A stretch of DNA of 64,000 nt from Armatimonadetes bacterium Uphvl-Ar1 (lineage in GTDB: Bacteria; Armatimonadota; Fimbriimonadia; Fimbriimonadales; Fimbriimonadaceae). A model generated the notes under the pieces. It had not been told where the DNA came from, did not search any database, and was given only the letters and a program-made list of their open reading frames with translations. The translations under genes and the position numbers were made by a program. The stretch lies in NCBI GenBank assembly GCA_002162075.1, contig CP021423.1, positions 1,550,001 through 1,614,000 of the forward strand, written 5' to 3'. This document shows positions 29,174-52,200 of this stretch, piece after piece (position 1 is the stretch's first letter; each line of letters starts with the position of its first letter).

Positions 29174-29748
29174 CGAACACCCCAATCCGTTAACAAACTC
29201 ATACTCTCCTGCCGAATCTGAACATATTCATCCCAAGAAACTTCAATACAACCTAGACTCTCTGTGTGTGGATTCAAAATCTGTGCATCTAAAGTGACAA
29301 AACCTAACTCTTTCAATTTCAAAGATAATCCAACTAGCGCAACCTTGCTCATATCCGTAACGCGATAAAACATACTCTCGGCACTAAAGTAGCCACCAAG
29401 CGCAAGTCCATAAACCCCACCCACCAAATCCCCTTCAATCCAAACCTCACAGCTATGCGCCCAACCTTCATCAAACGCCCTCAAGAAGACTTCAACAATT
29501 TCCTCCGACAGCCAATTATCTCCCGGACGAAAACATCCCCGAATCACATCCTCAAAAGCCTGATCAAAGGTCACATCAAACCCGCCTCGTCTAATCAGCT
29601 TCCCCAAGCTCCGGCTCACCTTCACCTGACACCCCGGAAAAATCGCCCGAACTGGCGGCAAATAGAACTGAACAACCCCATCATCATCCGTCATCGGGAA
29701 TGCCCCCTCCCTATAAGCATTCCAAAGCAAATCGGTTGTCAAACTCAT
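29149..29748 (-). CDS. aat: Leucyl/phenylalanyl-tRNA-protein transferase
   Basis: The 199-aa protein matches Aat throughout: YREGAFPMTDDDGVVQFYLPP near the N-terminus, FDVTFDQAFEDVIRGC, WLSEEIVEVFLRAFDEGWAHSCEVW, GGVYGLALGGYFSAESMF and LDAQILNPHTESLG. It attaches Leu or Phe to N-terminal Arg/Lys of proteins, marking them for ClpS-ClpAP degradation. ATG 29748 is chosen over the TTG at 29766. The 3' end overlaps the small acidic gene and the 5' end faces the DinB gene at 29784. Confidence 0.95.
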   Translation of the reverse strand: MSLTTDLLWNAYREGAFPMTDDDGVVQFYLPPVRAIFPGCQVKVSRSLGKLIRRGGFDVTFDQAFEDVIRGCFRPGDNWLSEEIVEVFLRAFDEGWAHSCEVWIEGDLVGGVYGLALGGYFSAESMFYRVTDMSKVALVGLSLKLKELGFVTLDAQILNPHTESLGCIEVSWDEYVQIRQESMSLLTDWGVRQAASSSS

Positions 29749-29783
29749 CCCGTAACCAGTCCTCAAGTATAGTGAGAATCAAG

Positions 29784-30200
29784 ATGAGCACATCCGCCTT
29801 CCTCAAAAATCAACTCGATACCGTTGGCAAACAACTGCAATCCGTATTCAATGAATTCCCCGATGGCAAATGGGACGAAAAAGCAACCCCAGTCAGCTTC
29901 TCCGCCGCAGAAACTGCCGAGCACCTCGCCGAATGCTATCAAGCCTTTCTCGTCCACGCTGAAGGCAATGACTACGAGTGGGGAACTTATCAAATCGAGG
30001 ACAAATCACCCGAAAATCTCGTCAAAACCATGTTCGACCAACGCTCAAAAGCAGCTGCCGTCGCCGCAAGCTCCGACGATCCGAAAATTCACAATTTCGC
30101 CACCGATTACATCCTTCTCCACGATGCGTATCACGTCGGTCAAATTGTAACTTTAAGACTTACAATTGGCGATTTCGATCCATATAGCCTTTACCGATAA
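29784..30200 (+). CDS. DinB-like protein
   Basis: The 138-aa protein is all-helical, with the metal-site-like HLAECYQAF and LLHDAYHVGQIVTLR near the C-terminus, typical of the DinB/YfiT superfamily. A TATAGT box (29768-29773) lies 10 nt before ATG 29784. Enzymatic role unknown; related to the gene at 1952 by fold but not obviously by sequence. It is followed by a strong hairpin. Confidence 0.82.
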   Translation: MSTSAFLKNQLDTVGKQLQSVFNEFPDGKWDEKATPVSFSAAETAEHLAECYQAFLVHAEGNDYEWGTYQIEDKSPENLVKTMFDQRSKAAAVAASSDDPKIHNFATDYILLHDAYHVGQIVTLRLTIGDFDPYSLYR

Positions 30201-30207
30201 GAGTTAT

Positions 30208-30239
30208 CGGCCCAACTTAAATAAATATAAGTTGGGCCG
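30208..30239. terminator. 12-bp hairpin between convergent genes
   Basis: A perfect 12-bp inverted repeat (30208-30219 with 30228-30239) around an 8-nt AT-rich loop lies 8 bp after the DinB stop and 15 bp after the end of the convergent pseudopilin gene. Neither side has a long T run, but it is placed to end both transcripts. Confidence 0.7.
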
Positions 30240-30253
30240 ACCTAATCTATATT

Positions 30254-31015
30254 TTAGTCACAAGCCCAATACCACGTTCCATCCGTCGGATGCGGATCAC
30301 CCGACTTGTGCCCGGAGGGGTGAACGACCGTATTGTCAAATTGACCGGCGCCCGTCACGAACTTCGCGTGTCCATCGGCAAAAATCAGCGAACCTCCTCG
30401 CCCCGACCATTGCTTATAAAAGTTGTTCGGCGCATCACAGTCATACCCATAACGAGAGCAGTCCGGAAGCTCAAACCCCTTCTTGCGGTCAAAGAACGGC
30501 AACATTTCGCTCCGCATAATCCGCGAATTAGCCGGATCCTCCATCGCCGTTTCTGTCACCGTCCAACTGACCGCCGCCCCTGGATCACCTTGGTAACTTT
30601 TGCTGTAGCCCGCGACCAGAGTATGCAAGCATTTTGTAAATCGATAAGAACTCCCATAGGCTCCCCAATAAGTGTCCTTTCCAGTATCCGAAACCGTAAA
30701 AGGTCCCCCACTATCAAGTGGACTCCGGAAAATGTCATTGTTCTTTGTGTATGGCAGTAACCAAACTTCAACTCCCTCATGACCCTGTGTGAAGGGCGCC
30801 GGAGAACTTTGATATGCCATGAAAATTGGCATCGTATCGTCATAGTCTGCTAAGTACATCTTTGACGAAAGTGCCACCTGACGGGCATTGCTGAGGCATA
30901 CCGTGTTCTTTGCCGCTTCTTTCGCTTGGGCAAAAACCGGGAACAAAATTGCCGCCAAAATCGCGATGATCGCAATGACCACCAAAAGTTCAATGAGCGT
31001 AAATGCTTTCTTCAT
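30254..31015 (-). CDS. Pseudopilin (DUF1559/type II secretion prepilin-like)
   Basis: The 253-aa protein has the class III prepilin signal [18 protein letters not shown] with the cleavage site before Phe and the +5 Glu, then [12 protein letters not shown], and an H-X9-DG-like feature (GGSLIFADGHAKF) near the C-terminus. This is the DUF1559 type common in Planctomycetota and Armatimonadota. GGA is 7 nt before the ATG. Upstream, on the same strand, lie a TPP riboswitch (31189-31092) and a terminator (31070-31037), so expression may be controlled by thiamine diphosphate; that would be unusual for a pilin-like gene. Confidence 0.9.
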   Translation of the reverse strand: MKKAFTLIELLVVIAIIAILAAILFPVFAQAKEAAKNTVCLSNARQVALSSKMYLADYDDTMPIFMAYQSSPAPFTQGHEGVEVWLLPYTKNNDIFRSPLDSGGPFTVSDTGKDTYWGAYGSSYRFTKCLHTLVAGYSKSYQGDPGAAVSWTVTETAMEDPANSRIMRSEMLPFFDRKKGFELPDCSRYGYDCDAPNNFYKQWSGRGGSLIFADGHAKFVTGAGQFDNTVVHPSGHKSGDPHPTDGTWYWACD

Positions 31016-31036: not shown

Positions 31037-31070
31037 AAAAAACCTGACTCCGCATTCAATCGGAGTCAGG
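31037..31070 (-). terminator. Rho-independent terminator linked to the TPP riboswitch
   Basis: A 10-bp perfect stem (31070-31061 with 31052-31043, arms CCTGACTCCG and CGGAGTCAGG) with an 8-nt loop is followed on the minus strand by a run of six T. It lies 21 nt after the riboswitch core and before the pseudopilin start, the standard place for the expression platform. Confidence 0.88.
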
Positions 31071-31091
31071 TCTCAAAAGATGATCTCTAGC

Positions 31092-31189
31092 CTCCGCATT
31101 CCCTCCGCCGGCATGACCCGGATCAGGTTCAAGGGGATCGGACGACCATTCTCGCCACATCTCAGCCAAACAAGGCACCCCCTGCGAGC
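31092..31189 (-). promoter_or_regulatory. TPP riboswitch (THI element)
   Basis: Read on the minus strand the sequence contains the conserved blocks of the THI box: GGGGGTGCC near the 5' end, GGCTGAGATG, CCTTGAACCTGATCCGGGT, and CATGCCGGCGGAGGGAA near the 3' end. The P1 stem can form between CTCGCA and TGCGGAG. These are the known TPP-binding motifs, so the family identity is firm. A terminator follows and the only downstream gene is a pseudopilin, not a thiamine gene. Confidence 0.95.
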
Positions 31190-31207
31190 AAATTTTTTCT
31201 TTGCAAT

Positions 31208-31236
31208 TCAATATTACGTTAAATCTATCAAGTCAA
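31208..31236 (-). promoter_or_regulatory. Promoter of the riboswitch transcript
   Basis: TTGACT (31236-31231) and TATTGA (31213-31208) are 17 bp apart on the minus strand, and the riboswitch begins about 19 nt downstream of the -10. The -10 is weak (three matches). Confidence 0.55.
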
Positions 31237-31300
31237 TCCCAATTTCAGCCCATTTCACTAAAGTTTCCCCCGTAAAAATACCAAAATAGAACCACACATC

Positions 31301-41343: not shown

Positions 41344-43028
41344 ATGACCACAACCTTGGGCAACGCCGCCCAACCGCGCACCGTACGCGCTCCGCGAGGG
41401 TCAGCCCTCACATGCAAGAACTGGCAAATTGAAGCTGCCTACCGCATGATCCAAAATAACCTCGACCCCGAAGTCGCCGAACGGCCTGAAGACCTCGTCG
41501 TCTATGGCGGAATCGGCAAAGCCGCCCGCAACTGGGAATGCTTCGAGGCCATCCTCAAAGCCCTCATAGACCTCAACCCAGATCAAACCCTCCTCGTCCA
41601 GTCCGGCAAACCCGTCGCCGTATTCCACACGCACACCGACGCTCCAAGAGTCCTCATCGCAAACTCCAACCTCGTGCCCAAATGGGCAACCTGGGAGCAC
41701 TTTCACGAACTCGACCGCAAAGGCCTCATGATGTACGGTCAAATGACCGCCGGCTCCTGGATCTACATCGGCAGCCAAGGCATCGTTCAAGGCACCCACG
41801 AAACCTTTGTCGAACTCGGTCGCCAACATTACAATGGCGATTGGACGAACAAGTGGATTCTCACCGCGGGCCTGGGCGGAATGGGGGTGCTCAACCTCTC
41901 GCCGCAGTCCTCGCCGGAGCCCACTGCATTGCCATCGAATGCCAAGAATCTCGCATAGACTTCCGAATCAAAACGCGCTATGTTGACCACAAAGCCACAA
42001 CTATCGGTGAAGCAATCGAAATCATTCAACGAGCTACAGCACCAACCAGCGTCGGCCTCCTCGGTAACGCCGCCGAACTCATGCCCCAGTTCGTCGAACT
42101 CGCCAAACGTGGCGGCCCAAAACCCCACGCCGTCACCGACCAAACTTCCGCCCATGACTTGATCAATGGTTACCTCCCCGCTGGCTGGACTCTCGATCAG
42201 TGGGAGTCAGCCCGCAAAGGTCCACCCGAAGCTCAAATCGCCCTCACTCAAGCCTCCGCAAAATCCTGCGCCACTCACGTGCAAGCCATGCTCGATTTTC
42301 ACCACATGGGCGTCCCGACAATCGACTACGGCAACAATATCCGCCAAGTCGCAAAAGACGAAGGAGTCACCAACGCCTTCGACTTTCCCGGATTCGTTCC
42401 TGCCTGTGTCCGCCCCCTATTCTGCGAAGGAAAGGGCCCGTTCCGCTGGGTGGCCCTCTCTGGCGATCCGGAAGACATCTACAAAACGGACGCCAAAGTC
42501 CGCGAGCTTTTCCCCGAGGATAAGCCTCTCCACCGATGGCTCACCCAAGCCCGCGAGCGAATCGCCTTCCAAGGTCTCCCGGCCCGAATCTGCTGGCTCG
42601 GACTCGGCGACCGTCACCGTGCCGCCCTTGCTTTCAACGAAATGGTCGCGTCCGGAGAACTATCCGCCCCTATCGTCATCGGTCGCGATCACCTTGATAC
42701 CGGCTCTGTCGCAAGCCCCAACCGCGAAACCGAAGCGATGCTTGACGGAAGCGATGCCGTTTCCGATTGGCCGCTCCTCAACGCTATGACCGCCGTCGCA
42801 GGCGGCGCAACCTGGGTCAGCCTCCATCACGGAGGCGGAGTCGGCATGGGTTATAGCCAACATTCCGGCGTCGTCATCGTTGCGGACGGAACTCCGGAAG
42901 CGGCTTCACGAATCGAAAGAGTCCTGTTCAACGACCCCGCAATCGGAGTCATCCGCCACGCCGACGCTGGCTACGAGATCGCCAAGCAATCCGCAAATGC
43001 GCACAACCTCATCAAGCCGATGAACTAA
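41344..43028 (+). CDS. hutU: Urocanate hydratase (hutU), one frameshift in this sequence
   Basis: The protein carries the urocanase landmarks: [39 protein letters not shown], then [40 protein letters not shown] and [21 protein letters not shown]-dependent hydration of urocanate to imidazolonepropionate. Adding one G to the run of five at 41883-41887 joins the two frames into a 561-aa protein, the normal length for the family. The break is therefore likely a sequencing error. The first gene of the hut cluster. Confidence 0.93.
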
Positions 43029-43123: not shown

Positions 43124-44646
43124 ATGACACTCATCACTCCCGGCTCCCTCACCCTCGCTGAGATCAAAACCCTCAGTGACACCCACGTCGCAATCCAAAT
43201 CCCTGAAAACAACTGGGCCAGAGTCCAAGCGGGAGCCGAAACCGTCGCCCGGATCGTCGCCAAAGGTGAACCCGCCTACGGAATCAACACCGGATTCGGC
43301 AAACTCGCCAAAGTCCATATCCCCGACGACCAACTCGCCCAACTTCAAACCAATCTCGTTCGCTCCCATGCCGTCGGCGTCGGCCCGATCCTTGACCCCG
43401 AAACAACTCGCCTCATTGCCATCCTCAAAATCGCCTCCCTCGCGCAAGGCTACAGTGGAATCCAGTCTGAATCGCTCCGAACCGCTATCGCGATCCACAA
43501 TGCGGGAATCCTCCCATGCATTCCAAGCCAAGGCAGTGTCGGTGCTTCCGGCGATCTTGCCCCATTAGCTCACTACACTTTGGCGCTGATGGGAGAAGGT
43601 GAAGTCATATACAAGAACCAAGTCCAGCCCGCCGCCAAAGCCTTACATGATGCAGGAATCAACCCCCTCGAACTCCATGCCAAAGAGGGCCTCGCCTTCC
43701 TCAACGGTACACAAGTCAGCACCGCAATTGCCCTGAGGGGTCTGTTCAAGACTAAGCAAGTATTTCGTGCTGCCATCCTCGCCGGAGCCCTTTCCGTCGA
43801 TGCCGCCAAAGGCTCTGACGCCCCCTTTGATCCCCGAATCCACGAAGTCCGGGGGCATCTCGAACAAATCGAGGTCGCCAAGATGTACCGTGACCTCCTC
43901 AGTGGTTCAGAAATCCGTGCCAGTCACCTCGAAAACGACGACAGAGTCCAAGACCCTTACTCACTCCGGTGCCAACCCCAAGTCATGGGCGCAATCCTCC
44001 AGCAAATTAACGCCCAATCAAATATCCTGCATACCGAAGCAAACGGCGTCACCGATAACCCCTTGTCTTCCCCGAGTCGGGCGATGTCCTCAGTGGCGGC
44101 AACTTCCACGCCGAACCCGTCGCCCTCGCCGCCGACAGCCTTGCCATCGCATGCGCCGAAATCGGTGGCCTTGCCGAACGCCGCATCGCCCTCCTCATTG
44201 ACAGCACCCTCAGCGGTCTCCCTTCATTTCTTACGCCGAACCCAGGCCTCAACAGCGGCTTCATGATCGCTCATGTCACCGCCGCCGCGCTCGTTAGCGA
44301 AAACAAAACCCTTGCCCACCCCGCAAGCGTTGACAGTCTCCCGACATCGGCAAACCAAGAAGACCACGTCAGCATGGCTACCTTCGCTGCCCGAAAACTC
44401 TGCATCATTGCCCAGAACGTCGAAACCGTTGTCGCCATCGAACTCCTCGCCGCTGCCCAAGGCATCGAATTCCACCGCCCACTCCGCACAAGTCAACCTC
44501 TCGAATCTCTGCACACCCAAATCCGCAATCTCGTTCCTCCGTACAACGAAGATCGCTACTTCGCCCCCGATATCGCAAAAATCGGCCTATTAATGAGCAC
44601 AAACCATTGCAACTTGGATTCCTTGGATCTTTTTCCAAGCTCATAA
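43124..44646 (+). CDS. hutH: Histidine ammonia-lyase (hutH), one frameshift in this sequence
   Basis: The protein has [13 protein letters not shown], the MIO prosthetic-group triad in [25 protein letters not shown] and, in the second frame, [16 protein letters not shown] and [15 protein letters not shown]. It deaminates histidine to urocanate. One added C in the run 44059-44062 joins the frames to a 507-aa protein of normal length. AAGGAAAG just upstream of ATG 43124 gives a ribosome-binding site. Between hutU and hutH lies a hairpin repeat. Confidence 0.94.
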
Positions 44647-45641: not shown

Positions 45642-46577
45642 ATGCTCGTCGAACCAACCAAACAATCCTGGCAGGGTCGCCACGACCCGCTAGACGGCTC
45701 CGACGGCCACCGCTGGCATCACATTGTCGAAATCGGCCCATCCCCCAACCCCGGCGCAATCAACCTCCTCGGATTCGCCTGTGACGAAGGTGTATTCCGC
45801 AACCAAGGCCGCGTTGGTGCCAAGCAAGGCCCCCAGCAACTCCGCCAAGCCCTGTCGAACCTCGCCATCCACCAACCCCTTCCCCTCCACGATCTGGGCG
45901 ACGTTGCCTGCCACGATAAAAACCTCGAACTCGCCCAAGGGGAATATTCCGGACTCGCCGCCGCGGCACTCAAAAAATCTCAACTCGTCGTCGGCCTCGG
46001 TGGTGGTCACGAAATCGGATTCGCCTCGTTTGCAGCTCTGAACGCCGCCCGCCCTCAAGGCACAATCGGCATCCTCAACTTCGACGCCCACTTCGACATG
46101 CGCCGAGACAATCAACGCACCAGCGGAACCTGGGCCGCCGATGCATTCGAAATTGCTGGCCCGCGAATCAAATACGCATGCTTTGGAATCTCATCTGCGT
46201 CGAACACCGCCGCTCTTTTCCGCACTGCCCAAAAACACTCCGTCCACTTCCGCCTCGATGAACGCCTCACCCTGCTCCATCTCGATGAAGCTAAACAAGA
46301 CCTCACGAACTGGCTCTCTGGAATCGACCACCTCTATCTCACCATCTGCTTGGATGTCTTTCCTGCCGCCTCTGCGCCGGGAGTCTCCGCACCCGCTGCG
46401 CTCGGACTTGCCCCCGAAGTCGTCGAACCTCTCCTCAAAATCGCCGCCAAATCCGGCAAACTCGCCAGTATGGATATCGCCGAACTCAACCCCACCCACG
46501 ACATTGACCACCGCACCGCCCGCATCGCCGCCCGCCTCATTTACCAAACCGTAAATTCTCTGGCCCCCTCTCACTAG
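45642..46577 (+). CDS. hutG: Formimidoylglutamase (hutG)
   Basis: The 311-aa protein belongs to the arginase/ureohydrolase family: GGGHEIGFASF, ILNFDAHFDMR (metal-binding D-A-H-x-D), ICLDVFPAASAPGVSAP and MDIAELNP. Within a hut cluster this family hydrolyses N-formimidoylglutamate to glutamate and formamide, the last step of histidine breakdown. The Mn ligands are intact. A -10 box lies 6 nt upstream. Confidence 0.9.
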   Translation: MLVEPTKQSWQGRHDPLDGSDGHRWHHIVEIGPSPNPGAINLLGFACDEGVFRNQGRVGAKQGPQQLRQALSNLAIHQPLPLHDLGDVACHDKNLELAQGEYSGLAAAALKKSQLVVGLGGGHEIGFASFAALNAARPQGTIGILNFDAHFDMRRDNQRTSGTWAADAFEIAGPRIKYACFGISSASNTAALFRTAQKHSVHFRLDERLTLLHLDEAKQDLTNWLSGIDHLYLTICLDVFPAASAPGVSAPAALGLAPEVVEPLLKIAAKSGKLASMDIAELNPTHDIDHRTARIAARLIYQTVNSLAPSH

Positions 46578-46714: not shown

Positions 46715-47611
46715 ATGAAGAAACTTGCTTTCACCCTCATCGAACTTCTTGTTGTCATCGCAATCATTGCAATAATCGCTGCAATCCTGTTCCCCGTATT
46801 TGCCCAAGCGAAGGAGTCGGCAAAAAAAACTGCATGCCTCAACAACGAAAAACAACTTGGCCTGGCTGCCCAACTCTACATGGCCGACTACGAAGGACAG
46901 CTCTTTCACCATCACGAGGATTGGGTGCTTGATGACGGTTCGCTAACCGTTAACCTACCAACGGATCCAAACGACTGCACCGGCGGCGGATTTGGCAATA
47001 GCCAAGCCGAGAAACCGTGGGCAATCTTTTTCCAGCCCTACATGAAGAGTCGACAGATCGCGTTTTGCCCAGGCGACCATGGACCAAAATCACAAAAACT
47101 CGCAACAAACTTGTTCGACTTTAACGGAAACACAGAGATCGTCGGTGAGGAATGCACCATCAATCCCCAAAGCGAAAGCTGTCTCGCCCAAGCCTCAAAT
47201 ACCATCATGTATAGCTATCTGATAAACTCCATTTTTACCCACAAATCGTGCCGCTACGGAGTCGAGGGAGTCCTTGACGGATTTGCAACAGAATCTGCTA
47301 TTGCAAGCCTCGAAGACCCGAACATCATCATGTTTTCAGAACGAAACTCCGAGGGACTGACTGATCCCACCAGCGACTTCTACTATGTGCCCCAAGACGA
47401 CTACGACGCGTGGGCTGGTGAAGGAGCTATGGTCAACTGGGGATCTGGGAGTCGTCCAAACGAAGGTTGGATCAAATACAATCGGCACAACGGCGGAGCC
47501 AACTACATCTATGCTGATTCTCACGTGAAATGGATGCGATGGGGTCGAGCCAAATTCGACCATTTCCCCGACCATGTCGTGCGATATCCCCTGGCCATTG
47601 ATGTGAACTGA
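46715..47611 (+). CDS. Pseudopilin (DUF1559/prepilin-like)
   Basis: The 298-aa protein has the prepilin signal [18 protein letters not shown] with Glu at +5, [24 protein letters not shown], and [18 protein letters not shown] near the end (H-X9-DG-like). It is a paralog of the genes at 30254 and 62524. It lies inside the hut cluster between hutG and hutI but has its own promoter, so it is probably not functionally linked to histidine use. Confidence 0.92.
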
Positions 47612-47651: not shown

Positions 47652-48878
47652 GTGACCTCAATACTCATCCGCAACGCCAACCTCGCAACGATGACGAACG
47701 ACAGGATCGGTCATCTCCCCAACCACGCCCTCATCACCCAAAACCAGCGCATCGCCTGGATCGGCCCCGACTCGGAAGTCCCCACCAAAACAAACCCCAC
47801 CGAAGAAATCAACGCCCAAGGAGCGTGGCTCCTCCCCGGATTCATTGACTGCCACACCCACCTCATCTACGCCGGATGCCGGGCGCATGAGTTCGAAGCC
47901 CGACTCGAAGGCAAATCCTACCAAGCAATCTGCGCCGAAGGCGGCGGCATCCTCTCCACCGTCAACGCCACCCGCTCCGCAACCGAAGCCCAACTCACAG
48001 AAGAAGCCACCAAACGAGCCCAAGATTTCATCGCCCAAGGAGTCACCACCCTCGACATCAAGTCCGGCTACGGCCTCACCCTCGAATCCGAACTGAAAAT
48101 GCTCCGCGTCGCCCAGAAACTCGGCGAAACCCTCCTCCTCCGCATCACCAAAGGACTCCTCGCCGCCCACACCCTCCCCCCTGAATTCACTTCCAAAGAC
48201 GACTACATTGACCACATCATTGCCGTCATCCTGCCCGAAGTCGTCAAAGAGAACCTTGCAGAATATGTGGATTGCTTTACCGAATCGGTCGGCTTCACAC
48301 CCGAGCAAACCCGCCGACTCTTCCAAGCCGCCCGAGACAATAACCTCCCGATCCGGCTCCACGCCGATCAACTCTCAAACCTCGAAGGGGCCGGCATCGC
48401 CGCCGAATTCCACGCTCTCTCGGCAGACCATGTTGAATACACTTCAGAGTCATCTGTCAAAAAAATGGCCCAGAGTGGCACCGTCGCCGTCCTCCTCCCC
48501 ACTGCCTTCTACTACCTCCGCGAAACCCAACTCCCTCCGATCCAGACATTCCGTGACCATGGAGTCCCGATGGCGGTCAGCACCGACTGCAACCCCGGCA
48601 CAAGCCCTTCCACCAATTTCCTCCTGGCCCTCAACATGGCAAGCACACTTTTCGGCCTAACTCCTACCGAATCCCTGCTCGGCGGAACAATTAACGCCGC
48701 CCGCGCCCTCGGTCTCCAAAACGAAATCGGCACTCTTGAAGTCGGCAAATCCGCCGACCTTGCCCTTTGGGCCATAGACCATCCAAGCCAACTCGTCGCC
48801 CGCCTCCAATCCCCACCCCTTCTTCAATCTTGGTCAAGTGGAAATAGAGGTTTACCTCAGCAATGCTCATCCATTTGA
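47652..48878 (+). CDS. hutI: Imidazolonepropionase (hutI)
   Basis: The 408-aa amidohydrolase shows LLPGFIDCHTHLIYAG (metal His pair), DIKSGYGLTLESELKMLRVAQ, LADQ-type RLHADQL, SADHVEY and STDCNPGTSP (metal Asp). It opens the imidazolone ring in step three of the pathway. The C-terminal 30 residues do not look like other HutI ends; a missing base near 48810-48816 would give a different ending, so the last residues are uncertain. GTG 47652 has TAAACT 8 nt upstream. Confidence 0.92.
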   Translation: MTSILIRNANLATMTNDRIGHLPNHALITQNQRIAWIGPDSEVPTKTNPTEEINAQGAWLLPGFIDCHTHLIYAGCRAHEFEARLEGKSYQAICAEGGGILSTVNATRSATEAQLTEEATKRAQDFIAQGVTTLDIKSGYGLTLESELKMLRVAQKLGETLLLRITKGLLAAHTLPPEFTSKDDYIDHIIAVILPEVVKENLAEYVDCFTESVGFTPEQTRRLFQAARDNNLPIRLHADQLSNLEGAGIAAEFHALSADHVEYTSESSVKKMAQSGTVAVLLPTAFYYLRETQLPPIQTFRDHGVPMAVSTDCNPGTSPSTNFLLALNMASTLFGLTPTESLLGGTINAARALGLQNEIGTLEVGKSADLALWAIDHPSQLVARLQSPPLLQSWSSGNRGLPQQCSSI

Positions 48879-51288: not shown

Positions 51289-52200
51289 TTAAACCCCAAT
51301 CGGCTCAGTCGGCTCGACTTTCTTACCCTTTACGCTGGCCAAACCAACCCCAAAAAGCACAAGCACAACCCCCGCAATCTGCAAAGCATTCAGCGAATCT
51401 CCTCTGAGCACCCAAGCTGATATTGCCGCAACCACCGGTACGAAGTAAGCAACCATCGAAGCCTTCGCTGGTCCAACTTCCCGAACCCCCACATAATAAG
51501 CCGTGAACGCCCCGGCACCCGCAATCAAAGTCAGATAAGCCAACCCCATCCATCCCCAAAATCCGATCGTACTGTAATCAAACTGCAATGTCGCCATTCC
51601 ACCATAAGGGAGCAAAACGAACGCCGCCCCCGCGTAAGTCGCCAGATAAACCCCGATCGCCGGACGGTCTTTCAAGAGTGGCTTCATCAGCACAACACTT
51701 GTCGCCCACACCAATGCACTCGCCAAAACTAAGCCAAGCCCAAGCGGAGTCCAAAACCGCTCACCTGATCCCATCAAAATCACCCCTGCCACCCCGGCAT
51801 AGGCAATCCCTCCACCAACAAAAAGTTGCCACCGTCCCATTTCCTGCCCGACAACTACTGAAATGATAGAAACCCAAATTGGTGCTGTTGCCAGACAAAC
51901 CGCACCCTGGGCTGCTCCAACGCGACTCATACCTTCCAAAAAGAGAACCATGTAAAGTCCCGTACTCAAAAACCCAGCAAACAAAAATCGAAACCATTCT
52001 TTTCCAACCGGCTTGTAGGTCTGCTTCACTGCAATTGCATAGGCCCCCATCACCGGAACCATCAGCAAATAACGCAGTACCATCACCACTTGGACGGGCC
52101 ATGCTTCAAGGGCAAATTTCACCACGACAAAGTTCAAACCCCAAGCCAAAACCACAAAAACTAAAGCAGGATGAGGAAGCCACAGGGGCCAACGCGACAT
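51289..52200 (-). CDS. EamA family drug/metabolite transporter
   Basis: The 303-aa protein has ten predicted transmembrane segments in two homologous halves (ALVFVVLAWGLNFVVVKFAL in the first; the second starts near AIGVYLATYAG). This is the DMT superfamily, which exports amino acids, nucleosides or drugs. A TAGACT -10 box (52213-52208) lies 7 nt upstream without a ribosome-binding site. Confidence 0.93.
   Translation of the reverse strand: MSRWPLWLPHPALVFVVLAWGLNFVVVKFALEAWPVQVVMVLRYLLMVPVMGAYAIAVKQTYKPVGKEWFRFLFAGFLSTGLYMVLFLEGMSRVGAAQGAVCLATAPIWVSIISVVVGQEMGRWQLFVGGGIAYAGVAGVILMGSGERFWTPLGLGLVLASALVWATSVVLMKPLLKDRPAIGVYLATYAGAAFVLLPYGGMATLQFDYSTIGFWGWMGLAYLTLIAGAGAFTAYYVGVREVGPAKASMVAYFVPVVAAISAWVLRGDSLNALQIAGVVLVLFGVGLASVKGKKVEPTEPIGV

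Follow-up and report, generated by a model that had tools for sequence, protein, structure and literature searches.

The known targets of TPP riboswitches are genes for the synthesis, phosphorylation or transport of thiamine or HMP. In contrast, the riboswitch described here has a pseudopilin gene as its first or only target, which raises the question why a sensor of a vitamin cofactor should precede a gene for a pilin-type protein. The element lies in a stretch of 64,000 nucleotides from Armatimonadetes bacterium Uphvl-Ar1 (the window), for which a first-pass annotation had offered two readings: either the pilin-like protein is regulated by thiamine, or a thi gene has disappeared, leaving the pilin gene under riboswitch control by position. 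The comparative analysis presented here indicates that the element is probably a TPP-off riboswitch acting on a pseudopilin that specifically serves thiamine salvage and may do so by binding the solute or capturing it at the surface. The name thiamine-salvage pseudopilin is put forward for this protein.

The aptamer, previously annotated as a canonical THI element on the minus strand, was recovered with a high score by a covariance-model search, exceeding the RF00059 gathering score of 54.3 bits by about ten bits over the whole length of the model (Table 1). Its core motifs CTGAGA, CCTGATC and GGGTCATGCCGGCGGAGG are kept in 41 relatives. Sequence and structure of the aptamer, the position in the 5' leader and the presence of a terminator with a possible antiterminator are all shared with TPP riboswitches of RF00059. 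The window riboswitch is an ordinary member of this family, and the novelty lies in its target. RNAalifold recovered only part of the aptamer from the alignment, because the variable P3 arm was misaligned by MAFFT. According to the RF00059 search, the source genome contains no other TPP riboswitch. The promoter annotated upstream of the riboswitch was not recovered by a scan of positions 31193–31300 for the sigma-70 consensus, and the sequence TTGACT at about 31236 is a candidate promoter element only.

Table 1. Features of the riboswitch-pseudopilin locus in window coordinates.
Feature	Position	Strand	Remarks
TPP riboswitch aptamer (THI element, RF00059)	31082..31192	-	cmscan 64.8 bits, E 1.9e-10, full model 1-105
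P1 helix, 3' strand	31092..31098	-	TGCGGAG; possible antiterminator strand
Intrinsic terminator hairpin	31039..31074	-	between aptamer and start codon; 14 pairs, then T-rich tail TTGTTTTT
Pseudopilin gene	30254..31015	-	253 aa, ending TWYWACD; sole gene directly under the riboswitch; PF07963, TIGR02532
Palindromic hairpin past the pseudopilin gene	30207..30240 (about)	-	probable shared terminator; TCGGCCCAACTT...AAGTTGGGCCGA
Convergent gene (ORF)	29700-30200	+	across the hairpin from the pseudopilin gene

The rho-independent terminator claimed for the region behind the THI element is borne out by its predicted folding energy (–23.5 kcal/mol; z-score of –7.0 relative to shuffled sequences). The segment CGGAG of P1 (31096–31092) can pair with CTCCG in the 5' arm of the terminator (31065–31061) and would thereby act as an antiterminator. 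This pairing is seen in folds of growing transcripts at lengths of 144–150 nt, before the terminator is complete. Across relatives, pairing between the P1 3' strand and the terminator 5' arm amounts to a mean of –8.0 kcal/mol compared to –7.4 kcal/mol with permuted arms, and values as low as the real one occurred in 2 of 200 permutations, a modest antiterminator signal. The leader structure itself is conserved across relatives and under selection, with a mean z-score of –4.1 against shuffles for the stretch from aptamer to start codon (below –2 in 57 of 66 cases) and of 0.06 for a control inside the ORF. A hairpin below –10 kcal/mol is present in 54 of 68 leaders; a stable hairpin in combination with at least four T in the tail is found in only 24 of them. 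Since many leaders thus lack the T-tail, some relatives may act on translation instead. For the window, the predicted expression platform, composed of a terminator and a competing antiterminator, would be able to switch. Under scarce TPP the P1 3' strand would pair with the terminator 5' arm and the pseudopilin gene would be transcribed, whereas bound TPP would lock P1, so that the terminator forms and transcription stops. From these folds we infer TPP-off control by termination.

The pseudopilin gene starts 66 nt after the aptamer and is the next gene on the minus strand. It is separated from the convergent ORF by the palindromic hairpin and therefore appears alone in its unit, in agreement with the earlier description as the only gene before a hairpin at 30208. 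The encoded protein is of the prepilin type, with an N-terminal cleavage and methylation motif (PF07963: 2e-7, 30.7 bits, cut-off 21.2; TIGR02532: 8e-8, 31.8 bits, cut-off 16.3) followed by a hydrophobic helix. Its original designation as a DUF1559 protein is only approximate, since the match to PF07596 (DUF1559/SBP_bac_10) is confined to residues 30–64 and reaches 15.0 bits, below the Pfam cut-off of 23.3; membership in PF07596 was accordingly rejected. Pseudopilins of PF07596 in Planctomycetes and Armatimonadota share with the window protein the prepilin methylation motif and a C-terminal ADGH-type motif, and a solute-binding role has been ascribed to this family (PMC2754498). The window protein, however, represents a separate, well-conserved family, whose members align over their full length with an identity of 44–99%. 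About 48 columns are invariant among 51 aligned members. Many of these are aromatic or acidic, and would suit the binding of a ligand like thiamine, which is cationic and aromatic.

AlphaFold2 predicted the full protein with a pLDDT of 94.6 and a pTM of 0.88 as a 51-residue N-terminal helix (residues 7–57) followed by a compact globular domain; the ectodomain alone was predicted with a pLDDT of 87.0. A Foldseek comparison with the PDB found nothing significant, whether for the full model or for the ectodomain alone. VIA-align retrieved pilins only for the full model, among them PilA4 with a Z-score of 5.2 over 122 residues, and no match for the ectodomain. The N-terminal helix and the general pilin layout are common to the window protein and PilA4 of Thermus thermophilus (6xxd), but the globular domain of the window protein is larger and lacks an informative match. 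This missing match is no evidence of a new fold; it does mean that thiamine binding is unsupported by the fold.

Among related genomes, 85 of 101 contain an RF00059 match. In the family of the window (f1), the same pseudopilin comes after almost all of the riboswitches despite flanking genes that vary between genera, and the pairing recurs in families f3, f5, f8, f12, f16 and f17. Judged by record titles, it is found in Fimbriimonadaceae, Fimbriimonadales, Chthonomonadales, Chthonomonadia and Armatimonadaceae, and the pseudopilin family occurs in no fewer than three lineages of the Armatimonadota, a poorly known phylum. An alignment of the pilin ectodomain served as a query for relatives that is blind to the RNA. 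Searching genome contigs with this profile yielded 64 loci, the names of which are of Armatimonadota type or uninformative, save one titled Methanoregulaceae. At all 33 scanned loci that had been picked by protein alone, a TPP riboswitch precedes the pilin gene on its own strand; at one of them (L171) the distance is 1.6 kb and a first pilin copy intervenes. A same-strand riboswitch is likewise present upstream at 19 of 19 further family loci.

Applied to 291 genomes of the phylum, the pilin profile gave a bimodal score distribution, with the family above 145 bits and the background below 80 bits; family members score 227–378 bits compared to at most 49 bits for the paralogs scored from the source genome. 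In a tree of family and paralogs, the latter sit on very long branches with rough support, which leaves monophyly unsettled, and the gap in profile scores was therefore used to delimit the family. At 112 of the 114 family loci (110 genomes), an RF00059 match on the same strand precedes the gene by less than 1.2 kb; the remaining two loci are second tandem copies. Accordingly, the first family copy is closely preceded by a TPP riboswitch on the same strand in all 110 genomes in which both were searched; these genomes are related and do not represent 110 independent events, but the pairing extends over several families in which the neighbouring genes have been reshuffled. The same pair is carried by genome G161. 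In none of the relatives read does a thi gene lie between riboswitch and pilin. Taken together, the comparison strongly supports the first of the two initial readings, a pilin-like protein regulated by thiamine.

Several individual loci deserve mention. L124, titled Methanoregulaceae archaeon (SJ84), carries an armatimonad riboswitch-pilin unit, and its name is probably wrong. At L063 (G032), a second TPP match (contig position 51556–51665; 53.6 bits, below the cut-off) lies ahead of a frame that looks like part of the pilin ectodomain and may be a pilin duplicate in decay. Second TPP riboswitches at L045 (G013) and L055 (G023) precede proteins of 231 and 580 aa, respectively, without a Pfam match, whose genes might be additional, so far overlooked members of thiamine metabolism. 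In the one f4 genome that was read (L073, G063), a 227-aa protein lacking a Pfam match takes the place of the pilin behind the riboswitch.

In Chthonomonadia, thiamine genes are located 3' of the pilin gene, which comes first: it is followed by thiamine pyrophosphokinase (TPK), identified by PF04263 and PF04265 with TIGR01378 above its cut-off, and by a sodium:solute symporter (PF00474). This order is found, for example, at L145, L146, L153, L156, L161, L164, L169, L170, L226, L228 and L244, and the three genes apparently share one transcript. Thus, thiamine-salvage genes follow the riboswitch in Chthonomonadia, and in the window the pilin gene alone does. Where the TPK-symporter pair sits elsewhere, as in Fimbriimonadia, the riboswitch stays before the pilin gene. 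The pair occupies a separate locus in G001 (f1), G066 (f5), G062 (f3) and G091 (f8), and the coordinates of TPK and symporter are equally close in many other f1 and f5 genomes. In the source genome, TPK is encoded away from the pilin (G000:C1:2910339-2910614), and a search of this genome for the TPK-linked sodium:solute symporter revealed no recognisable copy. In G008 (L039), an NMT1/THI5-like gene and one for an APH-type phosphotransferase come after the pilin gene, an arrangement that may represent a variant operon for the salvage of thiamine precursors.

TPP riboswitches that precede genes for transport and thiamine pyrophosphorylation are found with OMthi and pnuT-tnr3 of Bacteroides thetaiotaomicron (PMC5613172) and with ThiV of SAR11, a sodium:solute symporter proposed to carry HMP (PMC11452348). 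Like these salvage operons, those of Chthonomonadia hold TPK and a sodium:solute symporter. Unlike them, they are led by a pilin-type protein, and no TonB-dependent receptor is present in the operons read.

The f1 genomes, with the exception of G020, are devoid of complete ThiC, ThiG and high-scoring ThiE, and most of them contain TPK, so that the family of the window looks thiamine-auxotrophic. The exceptional G020 is an atypical f1 genome that also has neither a TPP match nor a family-level pilin match. In line with this, Fimbriimonas ginsengisoli has been reported to lack all enzymes of thiamine synthesis and to keep TPK alone (PMC4072686). Family f2 does possess ThiC; there, the riboswitches that were read are located before thiC (G061, G065, G069, G073) and the pilin profile gives background only. 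A few Chthonomonadia carry both the pilin and ThiC. One of these, G143, combines the riboswitch-pilin-TPK-symporter operon with a ThiC that has its own TPP riboswitch close by, and the riboswitch-pilin pair is therefore no strict bar to synthesis.

Could the arrangement nevertheless be a relic of a lost thi gene, with the riboswitch standing before the pilin gene by chance? The position of the TPP riboswitch before thiC in families with thiamine synthesis (G061, G065, G069) would be compatible with such a history. However, the pairing is kept in 110 of 110 genomes and in at least three lineages among unrelated neighbours, the pilin gene is first even where thiamine genes come after it, and the leader structure is under selection. 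Loss of a thi gene followed by control by position was therefore rejected, and the probability left to it is negligible. Nearly as improbable is an altered ligand, that is, a TPP-like aptamer which senses a related compound. Conserved positions are altered in a few members, such as those at L063 and L064, but the window aptamer has a canonical core and scores above the cut-off, and TPK, the operon partner, makes TPP itself.

The remaining alternatives accept the regulation by TPP and assign the pilin a different task. Low TPP could induce a pilin that handles no thiamine itself and instead alters adhesion, biofilm formation or contact with thiamine-producing neighbours. Riboswitch control of pilins has a precedent in Clostridioides difficile, where c-di-GMP riboswitches sit before pilin genes; there, however, the ligand signals surface behaviour and the targets are the main type IV pilus genes, whereas the ligand class in the window is a vitamin cofactor. 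A role in attachment would also agree with the 59 pilin-type genes of the source genome, with the ectodomain lacking a match to known binders, and with the attachment function attributed to type IV pili in Fimbriimonas ginsengisoli (PMC4072686). On the other hand, the family consists of one specific, highly conserved pilin and not of the main pilus genes, it shares operons with TPK and the symporter, and its many invariant aromatic and acidic positions are more readily explained by a site for binding or catalysis than by adhesion. Starvation-triggered attachment is thus unlikely, though the strongest of the alternatives. As an accessory of secretion, the pseudopilin might aid a type II secretion-like machine in exporting an enzyme that frees bound thiamine. 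The N-terminus does resemble GspG/GspH and ComGC, but this likeness is restricted to the shared N-terminal helix, and with neither a secreted enzyme nor a secretion gene in the operons read, such a role is quite improbable.

For the thiamine-salvage pseudopilin, regulation and association with thiamine appear well supported by the genomic comparison. The same applies to a part in thiamine salvage, as suggested by conservation, by the operon partners TPK and symporter and by gene content. Its gene is apparently transcribed together with those for TPK and the symporter in Chthonomonadia and stands by itself in Fimbriimonadia that lack thiamine synthesis, and it would be switched off by the transcription-terminating riboswitch once cellular TPP suffices. 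In the least certain step, the ectodomain, positioned in the inner membrane or on a short pseudopilus, may capture thiamine or a form of it and pass it to an inner-membrane uptake system. More tentatively, the pseudopilin could represent an extracytoplasmic receptor for thiamine or a form of it, in place of the binding protein or outer-membrane receptor that normally fills this role, and might typify a wider use of the many pseudopilins of these bacteria as substrate-specific capture proteins.

No report of a TPP-controlled pilin was found in the open-access literature. Since TPP riboswitches reliably mark thiamine genes, a pilin family accompanied by one in every genome in which both were searched points strongly to a hitherto unrecognised step of vitamin uptake, and suggests that these bacteria obtain vitamin B1, which they cannot make, via a pilin-type protein. 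If true, proteins of this type, usually associated with adhesion, motility, DNA uptake and secretion, would be tied to nutrient acquisition. Armatimonadota and Planctomycetes possess dozens of pseudopilins per genome with obscure roles, one of which now has a testable function, and cultured hosts exist.

A further pilin-type gene of the window (46715–47611, plus strand) is situated between a formiminoglutamase-like gene (45642–46577) and an imidazolonepropionase-like gene (47652–48878). It thus sits in an apparent cluster for histidine use and possibly encodes another pseudopilin of a nutrient pathway. Also on the plus strand, a urocanate hydratase-like ORF (41538–43028) displays an odd, low-complexity N-terminus and a histidine ammonia-lyase-like ORF (43124–44266) an odd C-terminus; both look frameshifted, by assembly error or decay.
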